From positions 1-64,000 of the forward strand of contig JAFVRD010000013.1 in NCBI GenBank assembly GCA_017504435.1: DNA of 64,000 nucleotides, in the 5' to 3' direction. Position numbers and translations under genes: made by a program. Origin of the DNA: Lentisphaeria bacterium. Its GTDB lineage: Bacteria > Verrucomicrobiota > Lentisphaeria > Victivallales > Victivallaceae. This document shows, one piece after another, positions 22,606-25,015 of the stretch (position 1 is the stretch's first letter; each line of letters begins with the position of its first letter). The notes under the pieces were generated by a model that was given only the letters and a program-made list of their open reading frames with translations, had not been told where the DNA came from and ran no database searches.

Positions 22606-24261
22606 TCAATTCCTTTGGGTTATAAGGTCACTGACACTGCCGCCGGGAGGGATCATCGGCAGTACAAATTCATCCATATCCAGTTGGCAATCAAGTACCA
22701 GCGGAGTATCAGCAGGCGGATTAAATAAAGCGCGCTCCAATTCAACCAGTCTGGTGATTTTTTTACCCTTTGCGCCGAATGCCCTTGCCAGAGCGGCGAA
22801 ATCGGTTTTCCGGTTCAACGTAGTGTGCGAATAGTGTTTGTCATAAAACATCGTCTGCCACTGCCGTACCATACCCAATACTCCGTTGTTGAAAATCACG
22901 ATCGTAAGCGGCAAATTTTGCGATACCGCTGTGGCAAGTTCCTGCAGACACATTCCGAAACTGCCGTCACCGGTGAAAAGTACCGTCGGTTTGCGGTCAT
23001 TGGCGATACATCCGCCGATCGCCGCGCCCAGACCGAACCCCATCGTACCCAATCCGCCGGAAGTCAACAGCGTGCGGGGCGTTTGAAAAGGAAAATATTG
23101 CATCGTCCACATCTGATGCTGTCCCACATCAGTAGCGATCACCGTATCCGGAGTACAGTATGAAGCGACTGTTTTCAGCAAATTAACAGGATTAAGCTGA
23201 TCGCTAACCGGATGAAAATCCAGCTTTTTCGCTTTGGCACACGCTTTTTCCCATTCCGGATGGGCAATCCGGGGCAATTTCTGCAGAAGTTGTTGTAACA
23301 CCGCTTTTACCTCCCCGCACAACTCCACATCAGCGGCGGTATTTTTGTTGATTTCGGCATGGTCGATATCGACATGGATGATCTTTTTGCCCTCTTTATA
23401 TTTTGCCGTATTACCGGTGGCGCGGTCAGAAAAACGGACCCCCAGAGCGATTATAAGATCACACTCTGTGAACATTTTAGCGGAACTTGCGGTGCCGTGC
23501 ATACCGCACATCCCCAGATTCAGCGGTTCATTTGCCGGCAGCGCAGTCAGCCCCATCATACTGAAGGTCACCGGAGCAGAAATACGCTTTGCCAGAGCCA
23601 GAAGCTCGTCACTTGCCCCGGAAGAAACCACTCCGCCGCCGGAGTAGATCAACGGGCGTTCAGCAGATTCAATCAGACGGAGCGTTTCACTTAAATCCAC
23701 TTCCGGCAGGGAGTTGAAAAACAGTTCCTGCGAAGTGTATTCGCTTTCATCACACATATCGGTCTGGATGCTTTTAGGAATATCCACCAACACCGGACCG
23801 GGACGGCCGGATGAGGCGATTTGGAATGCGGCATCCAGTATGCCATTTAAATCTTTTATATCGCTGACGGCGAAATTGTGCTTGACAATTTCCTGGGTTA
23901 TTCCGGTGATGTCCACCTCCTGAAAACTGTCCCGTCCCAACAGCGGCACAGCCACATTGCCAGTGATGGCAACCAGAGGTACGCTATCCAGATAAGCGTT
24001 GGCGATACCGGTGACCAGATTGGTCGCTCCGGGACCGCTGGTAGCGATGACCACGCCCGGCTTGCCGCTCACCCGGGCAAAACCGTCGGCGGCGTGAGCG
24101 GCATTCTGCTCATGGGCGCACAAGACATGGTTAATGCGGTGGGCGTTTTTATAAAGTTCATCATAGATGGGCAGAACTGCGCCGCCGGGATAACCGAAAA
24201 CGGTGTCCGCACCATTGCGGCACAATGCGTCGATAACTATTGCTGCTCCTGATTTTTTCAT
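22606..24261 (-). CDS. ilvB: Acetolactate synthase large (catalytic) subunit
   Basis: A 551-residue thiamine-diphosphate enzyme condensing pyruvate with pyruvate or 2-oxobutanoate. The catalytic Glu is in HEQNAAHAADGFAR. The ThDP motif GDGSFGM, followed about 25 residues later by FNNGVLGMVRQWQ, and the SGPGATNLVTG loop are present. It is the first structural gene of ilvBNCDA. The start at 24261 has no strong Shine-Dalgarno and lies about 30 bases after the second attenuator's terminator, so expression depends on read-through of the upstream hairpins. Confidence 0.96.
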   Translation of the reverse strand: MKKSGAAIVIDALCRNGADTVFGYPGGAVLPIYDELYKNAHRINHVLCAHEQNAAHAADGFARVSGKPGVVIATSGPGATNLVTGIANAYLDSVPLVAITGNVAVPLLGRDSFQEVDITGITQEIVKHNFAVSDIKDLNGILDAAFQIASSGRPGPVLVDIPKSIQTDMCDESEYTSQELFFNSLPEVDLSETLRLIESAERPLIYSGGGVVSSGASDELLALAKRISAPVTFSMMGLTALPANEPLNLGMCGMHGTASSAKMFTECDLIIALGVRFSDRATGNTAKYKEGKKIIHVDIDHAEINKNTAADVELCGEVKAVLQQLLQKLPRIAHPEWEKACAKAKKLDFHPVSDQLNPVNLLKTVASYCTPDTVIATDVGQHQMWTMQYFPFQTPRTLLTSGGLGTMGFGLGAAIGGCIANDRKPTVLFTGDGSFGMCLQELATAVSQNLPLTIVIFNNGVLGMVRQWQTMFYDKHYSHTTLNRKTDFAALARAFGAKGKKITRLVELERALFNPPADTPLVLDCQLDMDEFVLPMIPPGGSVSDLITQRN

Positions 24262-24290: not shown

Positions 24291-24334
24291 AAAATTAAAA
24301 AGCCCTGCCGGAAATCTTCGCTTCCGGCAGGGCT
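24291..24334 (-). terminator. ilv attenuator 2 intrinsic terminator
   Basis: On the minus strand AGCCCTGCCGGAA pairs perfectly over 13 bp with TTCCGGCAGGGCT around an 8-base loop, followed by TTTTAATTTT. It starts 20 bases after the stop of leader peptide 2 and ends about 30 bases before the ilvB start. The ascending-arm segment CCCTGCCGG (24324-24332) can instead pair with CCGGCACGG (24359-24367) at the end of leader 2, eight of nine positions matching, forming an antiterminator. Confidence 0.85.
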
Positions 24335-24353
24335 GAAACTGACTTGCTTGATT

Positions 24354-24497
24354 CTATACCGTGCCGGGGGGCATAATAATAATTACGCTGATAATAATGG
24401 TAATAATAATGACGGCGGCAACGGATACGACAACAGAACCGGACACAGAAAGTGCCGGGACAAAATTGATGTTGCTGTTAAAAAGTGTCGTATTCAT
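24354..24497 (-). CDS. ilv leader peptide 2 (47 aa, Ile/Val-rich)
   Basis: The small frame starts ATG-AAT-ACG at 24497 and ends TAG at 24354. It encodes 10 Ile and 9 Val in 47 residues, with the cluster VIIITIIISVIIIMPPGTV at the end, reminiscent of the enterobacterial IlvL pattern VVVIIIPPCG. Codons are mainly ATT. A ribosome stalled on the Ile run would leave the last codons (CCGGCACGG) free to pair with the terminator arm; a ribosome at the stop would cover them. There is no strong Shine-Dalgarno. A short TTG frame after the GGAGA of terminator 1 ends ATGA exactly at this start, so coupling is possible. Translation is inferred from composition and layout. Confidence 0.8.
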   Translation of the reverse strand: MNTTLFNSNINFVPALSVSGSVVVSVAAVIIITIIISVIIIMPPGTV

Positions 24498-24512
24498 TTT
24501 CGTTTTCGTTTC

Positions 24513-24551
24513 AAAAAAAAATCTCCCTGCGGCTGATCACCGAAGAGAGAT
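24513..24551 (-). terminator. ilv attenuator 1 intrinsic terminator
   Basis: On the minus strand ATCTCTC pairs with GGGAGAT (one G-U), with an inner CGG/CCG stem around TGATCAG, followed by nine T. It starts about 24 bases after the stop of leader peptide 1. The segment ATCAGCCG (24530-24537) is perfectly complementary over 8 bp to CGGCTGAT (24587-24594) in the last codons of leader 1, giving a competing antiterminator. Confidence 0.8.
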
Positions 24552-24581
24552 ATTATAAATCATTCAAGTTTATCTCAACAA
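24552..24581 (-). promoter_or_regulatory. Possible internal promoter between the two ilv attenuators
   Basis: A perfect TATAAT (24552-24557) lies 18 bases from TTGTTG (24576-24581), which overlaps the leader 1 stop codon. Transcripts from here would start inside terminator 1 and meet only attenuator 2. The -35 box matches four of six consensus positions, so this is a candidate only. Confidence 0.35.
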
Positions 24582-24664
24582 CAGCAATCAGCCGTACCGA
24601 CGCCGATAATTACGACGACGGCAATAATAATAACGCTGATAATGTTGTTGAAAAATTTGTTCAT
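24575..24664 (-). CDS. ilv leader peptide 1 (29 aa, Ile/Val-rich)
   Basis: The frame starts at ATG 24664 with GGGGA 5 bases upstream and ends TGA at 24575. It encodes 7 Ile and 5 Val but no Leu in 29 residues: NNIISVIIIAVVVIIGVGTA then D and three Cys. The last codons contain CGGCTGAT, which can pair with the loop and descending arm of the following terminator. The layout is that of a ribosome-mediated attenuator sensing charged tRNA-Ile and tRNA-Val. It shares an ATTATCAGCGT-ATTATTATT core with leader 2, which suggests a tandem duplication. The start lies about 25 bases downstream of the predicted transcription start. Confidence 0.82.
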   Translation of the reverse strand: MNKFFNNIISVIIIAVVVIIGVGTADCCC

Positions 24665-24695
24665 TTTTTCCCCGTTTCATTTCAAAACACCTTTT

Positions 24696-24723
24696 AATAT
24701 ACCATTGTTTTTTTTACTGTCAA
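24696..24723 (-). promoter_or_regulatory. Main promoter of the ilv leader/ilvBNCDA operon
   Basis: On the minus strand a perfect TTGACA (24718-24723) is separated by 16 bases from TATATT (24696-24701), with a TG one base before the -10 box. The predicted start near 24689 leaves a short 5' UTR of about 25 bases before leader peptide 1. Confidence 0.8.
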
Positions 24724-24761
24724 GAGGGAAAAAAGAAAAAAAAGAAAATTTTTTTGAAGGC

Positions 24762-24790
24762 TTGACTTGCAAAAAAAACGGTGCTACATT
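24762..24790 (+). promoter_or_regulatory. Promoter of the orphan plus-strand leader
   Basis: TTGACT (24762-24767), a 17-base spacer and TACATT (24785-24790). It is divergent from the ilv promoter, about 40 bases away across an A/G-rich stretch. The predicted start near 24797 lies about 30 bases before the small frame. Confidence 0.7.
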
Positions 24791-24827
24791 AAAGAATACA
24801 CGCAAGAAAAAAGTGCGGAAAACAAAA

Positions 24828-24908
24828 ATGAAAAACATTATTATCAACCTTATTACGCTTGACATTCTTCTGCTTATTCAGGAGAGTGCTGTTCCGTCGT
24901 GCGGTTGA
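24828..24908 (+). CDS. Orphan leader peptide (26 aa, Ile/Leu-rich)
   Basis: The frame is ATG at 24828 to TGA at 24908, with GCGGAA about 9 bases upstream. It encodes 6 Ile and 5 Leu in 26 residues (MKNIIINLITLDILLLI, then polar residues ending SCG). GTGCTGTTCCG (24886-24896), in the codons just before the stop, can pair over 11 positions (three G-U) with CGGAGCAGTGC (24932-24942) in the ascending arm and loop of the following terminator. That is the same design as in the two ilv attenuators. No sense gene follows: the next genes are convergent (rpsS end). It may be an attenuator left behind by a rearrangement, a regulatory small RNA, or a small membrane peptide. Confidence 0.65.
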   Translation: MKNIIINLITLDILLLIQESAVPSCG

Positions 24909-24927
24909 TAGAATCAAAAGCAAACCG

Positions 24928-24962
24928 ATCCCGGAGCAGTGCATGTTCCGGGATTTTTTTAT
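24928..24962 (+). terminator. Terminator of the orphan leader
   Basis: ATCCCGGA pairs with TCCGGGAT around an 11-base loop, followed by seven T. It starts 20 bases after the leader stop codon. An alternative pairing of its left arm with the leader coding sequence would prevent its formation. Confidence 0.8.
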
Positions 24963-24975
24963 ATTACTTCAGCGT

Positions 24976-25015
24976 AAAAAAACTCCCGTCTACCAATTTG
25001 ATAAACGGGAGTTTT
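24976..25015 (-). terminator. Terminator of the rpsS-ending ribosomal operon
   Basis: On the minus strand AAACTCCCGT/ACGGGAGTTT form a 10-bp stem followed by seven T, about 25 bases after the rpsS stop. On the plus strand it is followed by TTTTATT, so it may also stop transcripts coming from the orphan leader. Confidence 0.85.

Follow-up and report, generated by a model that had tools for sequence, protein, structure and literature searches.

Three short leader units in the 64,000-nucleotide stretch of Lentisphaeria DNA that was analyzed here (the window) are very probably classical four-region, three-hairpin, ribosome-mediated attenuators, two of them standing in series before ilvB on the minus strand and the third, a divergently oriented orphan on the plus strand, being the relic of a leu attenuator. 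Each unit consists of a reading frame rich in cognate codons before the first gene of an operon, with an intrinsic terminator between the two; for the orphan, the first gene is missing here. The elements, their conservation, and their mutually exclusive pairing are present in the sequence, and from them we infer transcription, ribosome stalling, the kinetic order of folding, and regulation.

In the mechanism that we propose, region I would lie in the first codons of the leader, followed by the Ile/Val (or Leu) control codons and by region II in the last 4 to 10 codons, and regions III and IV would together form the terminator. When the amino acid is ample, the ribosome would reach the stop codon and cover region II, and the terminator would form. 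A ribosome stalled on the control codons would melt region I and leave region II free, so that II:III would pair before region IV is made and read-through would follow. Without translation, I:II would tend to occupy region II and favor termination; this predicted outcome is clear for unit 1, the orphan, and the single leaders of a second family in the class and unclear for unit 2. With two units in series before ilvB, read-through would occur only when both are open.

Organization of the leader regions

On the ilv side, the minus strand carries a pair of leader frames, each with its own intrinsic terminator downstream, between a putative promoter and ilvB, the first regulated gene, which encodes the acetolactate synthase large subunit (22606..24261, minus strand; TIGR00118, 658.6 bits) and is followed by ilvC, ilvD, and ilvA. 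The promoter-like, sigma-70-like sequence TTGACA-16-TATATT (24696..24723, minus strand) has 11 of 12 consensus matches and, by eye, is conserved in relatives. Leader 1, MNKFFNNIISVIIIAVVVIIGVGTADCCC plus stop (24575..24664, minus strand), is followed by terminator 1 with its U run (24513..24551, minus strand; arms 24551-24545 and 24527-24521), and leader 2, MNTTLFNSNINFVPALSVSGSVVVSVAAVIIITIIISVIIIMPPGTV plus stop (24354..24497, minus strand), by the 14-pair terminator 2 (24301..24334, minus strand). Early in leader 2, ahead of the Ile codons, is a further hairpin, CCGGCAC/GUGUCCGG (24439..24458, minus strand), four core pairs of which are retained in 14 to 15 of 16 sequences.

The orphan would be read from a promoter-like TTGACT-17-TACATT (24762..24790, plus strand; 9 of 12 matches), in which relatives have TATATT. 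Its leader, MKNIIINLITLDILLLIQESAVPSCG plus stop (24828..24908, plus strand), corresponds to leader A of the leuA operon, and its terminator (24927..24955, plus strand) is followed by convergent ribosomal protein genes, not by leuA.

The ilvB loci compared came from 15 further genomes of the same genus, family, or order and, with the window, numbered 16; two others (L019 and L095) were unusable, as they end at a contig edge, and at L119/L203 neither unit 1 nor unit 2 was found upstream of ilvB. The nearest relatives of the window's IlvB, at 89 to 99% identity among the best eight matches, were from Lentisphaeria/Lentisphaerae metagenome-assembled genomes of herbivore hindgut or unstated source. 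Leader 1 was kept in 15 of the 16 loci (it is absent from L018), and leader 2 was present in all 16.

The composition of the leader peptides tracked the pathway downstream: Ile/Val before ilvB, Leu before leuA, and Phe/Tyr before aroF-pheA. That the frames encode small membrane proteins and that the hairpins are ordinary terminators would fit peptides that are hydrophobic and conserved, but a composition that follows the downstream amino acid product in three pathways, together with a codon choice that favors RNA structure, makes this the least probable of the readings considered, with hardly any weight left to it.

A search of the window at Rfam gathering scores returned three tRNAs only, with no riboswitch or T-box among the hits. 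A T-box or other known riboswitch was rejected as a candidate on this result; at lax thresholds, Rfam leader and small-RNA families matched only far below threshold.

Pairing of leader ends with their own terminators

The original prediction had placed an antiterminator strand within the last codons of all three leaders, each complementary to the terminator that follows, and all three complementary pairs lie at exactly the positions given, with helices partly longer than had been claimed. In unit 1, 13 contiguous pairs join CGGCTGATTGCTG (24594-24582, minus strand) to CGGTGATCAGCCG (24542-24530, minus strand); the former is region II, the antiterminator 5′ strand CGGCUGAUUGCUG in the last codons of leader 1 (24582..24594), and the latter region III, the 3′ strand CGGUGAUCAGCCG within terminator 1 (24530..24542). 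In unit 2, region II (CCGGCACGG, 24359..24367, minus strand) meets region III, the 5′ arm of terminator 2 (CCCUGCCGG, 24324..24332, minus strand), through CCGGCA/TGCCGG and GG/CC on either side of one C:C mismatch (6 + 2 pairs). The orphan helix has 11 pairs between region II (GUGCUGUUCCG, 24886..24896, plus strand) and region III (CGGAGCAGUGC, 24932..24942, plus strand) and continues in a second, inner helix at about 24901-24906/24922-24927. As read from these letters, the putative antiterminator and the terminator are mutually exclusive in these units.

Conservation of this design was assessed in 54 units: 15 of leader 1, 16 of leader 2, 6 of leu leader A (the orphan type), 3 of leu leader B, and 3 + 3 + 8 of the second family (f21) of the class, in which three genomes have two units and eight have a single recognized unit, with unrelated letters. 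The orphan of G012 (L038), with its broken terminator, was excluded from the set. As the measure of complementarity, we took the best gapless helix that the final 30 nt of a leader form with the loop and 5′ arm of the terminator belonging to it, with swapped terminators from other unit types as the control; RNA duplexes with interior loops were dropped as too permissive, swapped pairs scoring nearly as well.

In 49 of the 54 units, no other window of the leader had strictly better complementarity than its end, which supports the shared placement of the antiterminator strand, and no unit among the 54 kept its leader peptide while losing the complementarity. Mean helix energies were -21.5 with the own terminator versus -11.0 to -15.1 with swapped ones for leader 1, -14.3 versus -9.8 to -12.7 for leader 2, -19.0 versus -9.2 to -14.5 for leu leader A, -21.1 versus -8.5 to -13.8 for leu leader B, and -19.8 versus -9.9 to -15.7 for the single units of the second family. 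The double units of that family were the weakest by this control (own, -15.1 and -14.8; swapped, up to -13.6 and -14.2). When the last codons of the window leaders were recoded synonymously, none of 1,000 variants of the orphan paired equally well, and pairing as good was reached by 0.6% for unit 1 and 3% for unit 2. The three complementarities in the window are not due to chance, as the best-window count, the own-versus-swapped energies, and these recoding results show.

Compensatory substitutions in relatives, which had been suggested as a check, were clear in one unit and modest in the other. In the unit 2 alignment (16 rows), both-sided changes at three II:III pairs were found, a result reached by 0 of 500 shuffles. 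In the unit 1 alignment (15 rows), 95.3% of the II:III cells pair, with 12 to 59% in slid controls, and none of the 13 pairs is invariant; covariation within the genus was modest, its score being reached by 27 of 500 shuffles, with mostly G:U exchanges and few true double changes. For L016 and the leaders shorter by one codon, which are slightly off register in the MAFFT alignment, the unit 1 counts for II:III and I:II are slightly low.

A pyrBI-like arrangement, in which there is no antiterminator, a closely following ribosome directly blocks folding of the terminator, and the complementarities are by-products, would agree with the terminators being the most stable structures at equilibrium. 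We consider it very improbable: an antiterminator is found in these units, leader ends of seven unit types still match their own terminators although the sequences have turned over, and the double changes preserve the pairing of unit 2. Starvation would, moreover, raise termination under such an arrangement, the wrong sign for biosynthesis genes.

A predicted conserved hairpin within the leaders

According to the original prediction, only two competing structures would be needed. This part of the claim does not hold for unit 1 or the orphan type, where a conserved leader hairpin, I:II, is predicted to use the same terminal codons in 15 of 15 and 6 of 6 leaders, respectively. It is because the leader frames are predicted to form this hairpin as well that we assign the units to the classical I-II-III-IV architecture.

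In unit 1, region I spans 24635..24653 on the minus strand and comprises UUUCAACAACA (24653-24643) and AUCAGC (24640-24635), in codons 4 to 10. Its partners across the last codons and the stop, GCUGAU (24592-24587) and UGUUGUUGAGA (24583-24573), span 24573..24592 on the minus strand and overlap the antiterminator strand. The hairpin was predicted in all 15 unit 1 leaders, in L012 in a different register, and for 11 of the 15, no more than 4 of 100 synonymous recodings were as stable. In equilibrium folding, termination of the window's unit 1 without a ribosome depends on it. In the orphan, region I (UUAUCAACC, 24841..24849, plus strand) pairs with GGUUGAUAG (24903..24911, plus strand), which spans the stop codon, and the helix AUCAACC/GGUUGAU, or one base different, is found in all six genomes with this leader type. 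Second-family leaders have a hairpin in the same role with other letters, for example, CAACCACC/GGUGGUUG in L179. In most unit 1 leaders, and in several from the second family, the I:II strands share bases with the antiterminator strand, in full or in part; the orphan's leader hairpin sequesters the neighboring inner part, not the antiterminator strand itself.

The predicted hairpin is present in unit 1 and the orphan type, but its covariation in unit 1 is weak (30 of 500 shuffles reach the score), and in unit 2 its positions differ between genomes and the synonymous test is nonsignificant in most of them; both points were counted against generalizing I:II. No consistent I:II helix was found in leu leader B. 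Unit 2, with its inconsistent I:II pairing, may have a simpler design.

Many of the ilv, leu, and aroF leaders begin M-(N/K)-x-F-N-(N/S). In unit 1, region I comes from the Phe-Asn-Asn codons, a hint that the leaders descend from one another by duplication.

Effect of ribosome position

The consequences of ribosome position were modeled on RNA extending to the apical loop of the terminator plus 6 nt, with a footprint that took the first base of the A-site codon as its reference and reached 15 nt upstream and 13 nt downstream from there. The antiterminator was predicted with the ribosome at the control codons and lost with the ribosome at the stop codon (a difference of >3 pairs) in 52 of the 54 units, the exceptions being unit 1 of L016 and unit 2 of L018, and the proposal that a ribosome at the stop codon masks the antiterminator strand is upheld by this model. 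Mean expected antiterminator pairs at the control codons versus the stop codon were 12.7 versus 0.1 for leader 1, 8.6 versus 0.5 for leader 2, 17.9 versus 7.9 for leu leader A, and 17.4 versus 5.0 for leu leader B; the second-family groups gave 20.0 versus 2.6, 14.2 versus 0.5, and 11.3 versus 1.1.

The fold comparison with a placed footprint thus showed the switch in transcripts cut before the 3′ arm of the terminator, and in whole transcripts at equilibrium the switch was mostly hidden. There the terminator was favored at every stall position in 29 of 39 units, including the window's unit 2, and termination dropped below 0.5 in only 10 of 39. Since the terminator usually wins at equilibrium, control would have to be kinetic. 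The window's unit 1 behaved at equilibrium as an ideal switch, with termination at 0.95 when no ribosome was present, falling to about 0 with the ribosome stalled at codons 3 to 20 and reaching at least 0.9 from codon 22 onward.

A stall at the control codons exceeded the ribosome-free state by more than one antiterminator pair in 31 of the 54 units, and window units 1 and 2 were not among them. Ribosome-free transcripts cut before the 3′ arm of the terminator gave 15.8, 10.0, and 16.3 antiterminator pairs for unit 1, unit 2, and the orphan. In the model, region I is accordingly not a strong lock in window units 1 and 2, because the ribosome-free leader makes nearly as much antiterminator as the stalled one. 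The same values favor a minimal design in which antiterminator and terminator are the only competitors, the switch consists solely of a ribosome at the stop codon, and read-through follows when the leader is untranslated, as does the want of a consistent I:II helix in unit 2 and leu leader B. Such a design is nevertheless unlikely, given that I:II is predicted in every unit 1 and orphan-type leader and recurs with other letters in the second family and that the whole unit 1 transcript terminates at 0.95 when ribosome free and at about 0 once a stalled ribosome removes the start of the leader.

The leading edge of a stalled ribosome lies about 13 nt ahead. Counted from its first base, the last Ile codon stood 13 to 16 nt ahead of region II in unit 1 (13 in the window) and 7 to 16 nt (median, 10) ahead of it in unit 2, and the last Leu codon stood 11 to 13 nt ahead in five of six leu leader A copies and 11 to 15 nt ahead in leu leader B. 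The sixth leader A copy, whose peptide has two Leu codons near its end, had a spacing of -7, and the second-family spacings from the last control codon were 12 to 17 in one group and 9 to 50 in the others. The close spacings, in the genus mostly 10 to 16 nt from the last Ile or Leu codon, match the leading edge of a stalled ribosome.

In unit 2 of G020 (L008), the stop codon TAG has become CAG, and the frame runs four codons farther, past the antiterminator strand. With the ribosome at the new stop, the model leaves about 6.5 antiterminator pairs and region II unmasked. This unit is a natural test case for the placement of the stop codon.

The orphan unit and probable loss of the leu operon

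The orphan is not an independent third ilv unit. In G015 and G020, the orthologue of the orphan is followed by a second leader and terminator and then by leuA, leuC, leuD, and leuB (leuC, leuD, and leuB identified by eye, by where they lie and how they read), and in G031 a second leader and leuA were seen downstream in the stretch examined. The orphan is most plausibly what is left of the first attenuator in such a leu pair. Searches of the window's genome (G000; 95.5% completeness) gave only paralogues about 30% identical for LeuA and, for LeuC, only matches at about 34 to 40% identity in a 732-residue frame that is aconitase-like by size. Because no close LeuA or LeuC was found at this completeness, the leuACDB operon has probably been lost from the genome.

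Three genomes in which leuA of the orphan type was not found (G000, G001, and G025) retain an orphan with intact reading frame, II:III pairing, and terminator. A role of the orphan in trans, through a small RNA or a peptide that has outlasted the leu operon, is possible in view of this integrity, and attenuator RNAs and peptides can act in trans, as with rnTrpL/peTrpL of Sinorhizobium in the account drawn on here (PMC7298713). We nevertheless give it only a slim chance: the -10 box is weaker in the window (TACATT) than in relatives (TATATT), and the copies in two genomes resemble stages of decay, G012 having kept the frame and lost the 3′ half of the terminator and G028 retaining the promoter region only. 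G001 and G025 were likewise placed among the stages of decay. Read as a leu relic, the orphan illustrates an attenuator outliving its operon.

The lack of a TrpE match and of close LeuA and LeuC in searches of G000 suggests auxotrophy for Trp and Leu despite the ilv genes.

Comparison with known attenuators

In the trp attenuator, the control codons lie within region I and the stop codon comes before the end of region II, whereas the Lentisphaeria units have their control codons after region I and their stop codon at or behind the 3′ end of region II. The units otherwise resemble the trp and his attenuators of Escherichia coli and Salmonella, as modeled in the source used here, in having regions I to IV, the pairings I:II, II:III, and III:IV, control codons, and a switch set by ribosome position (PMC1183508). 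According to that model, little basal read-through is expected from a stop codon located well downstream within region II (PMC1183508).

Also among the closest known systems is ilvBNC of Corynebacterium glutamicum, for which the parts of the report drawn on describe an antiantiterminator (apex, 30-52), an antiterminator (36-79), and a terminator (77-113) that are mutually exclusive (PMC11857589). As in Lentisphaeria, the 5′ strand of its antiterminator lies in the last codons of the leader, whose end at about position 49 is arithmetic from the 15 codons and a start codon one nucleotide from +1 given there (PMC11857589). It differs in being a single unit in Actinobacteria with a leaderless 15-residue peptide and Leu and Val control codons, and its antiterminator overlaps only the base of the terminator, whereas region III in Lentisphaeria is the 5′ arm and loop (PMC11857589). 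Candidate ilvB leaders of Actinobacteria are likewise Ile/Val/Leu-rich frames next to terminators upstream of ilvB, but there the frame overlaps the terminator, and no antiterminator is given in the portion of that account used (PMC1262725).

The attenuator design itself was thus already known; what is new is that it occurs in Lentisphaeria, stands doubled in series, and serves several pathways. A literature search, mainly of openly accessible papers, returned no report of leader-peptide attenuation in Lentisphaeria, and among titles and the beginnings of abstracts none dealt with two leader-peptide attenuators in series. Peptide-leader attenuation is here extended to the class Lentisphaeria. 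We suggest, as a tentative and rather speculative reading, that Lentisphaeria use this attenuator as a standard part in operons for Ile/Val, Leu, and Phe/Tyr, with region II ahead of the stop codon and with doubling before ilvB and leuA. This would be a natural form of the low-leak strategy that Elf and Ehrenberg predicted: the effects of two successive ribosome-gated locks would multiply, keeping basal expression very low with no need of a DNA-binding repressor. Because these units naturally have the stop codon behind region II, they make the predicted effect of that position on basal read-through testable.

Leaders in other operons and other bacteria

In the window's own genome, aroF-pheA (pheA named by eye from its N-terminal sequence) is preceded by a Phe/Tyr leader, MKNFNSIRFSFYYGFAFFRKQGGMSVAAI plus stop, in which AGCAGGGC is able to pair with the terminator segment GCCCUGCU. 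The locus is L210 (G000:C40, reverse strand; positions 1081-1171 of the reverse complement). A related genome (L079) has a similar leader upstream of aroF, with AGCGGGG/CCCCGCU pairing, and at both loci the leader-end antiterminator is accompanied by a leader hairpin. The attenuator search of the window's genome saw no leader before hisG and no match to TrpE.

Outside Lentisphaeria, 60 of 61 ilvB loci had enough upstream DNA, and 31 of the 60 had an Ile/Val/Leu leader with a terminator; the leader end was the best complementary window in 19 of the 31. The Clostridia and Treponema-type leaders resemble the Lentisphaeria units in placing an Ile/Val/Leu leader before a terminator, and they differ in belonging to another peptide family and in having one unit per locus, as seen by automatic detection only. 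Many of these peptides (L094-L158) end in ...LRCAE or LRYAE, which marks a recurrent leader peptide family.

At L185, L186, and L187, the single attenuator is separated from ilvB by a second frame (MKSKM...), which has a good ribosome binding site and no obvious terminator.

A 35-bp match of the window, at about 24954-24988, to other contigs was rejected as part of the attenuators, as it sits behind the terminator. The 17-base motif ACGCTGAARYAATATAA occurs in three copies in the genome (window 24959-24975, G000:C5:151-167, and G000:C49:29056-29072), each just behind a terminator-like hairpin and T run. For two of the copies, the shared sequence extends beyond the motif and is close to contig ends, possibly a repeat or a rearrangement joint.
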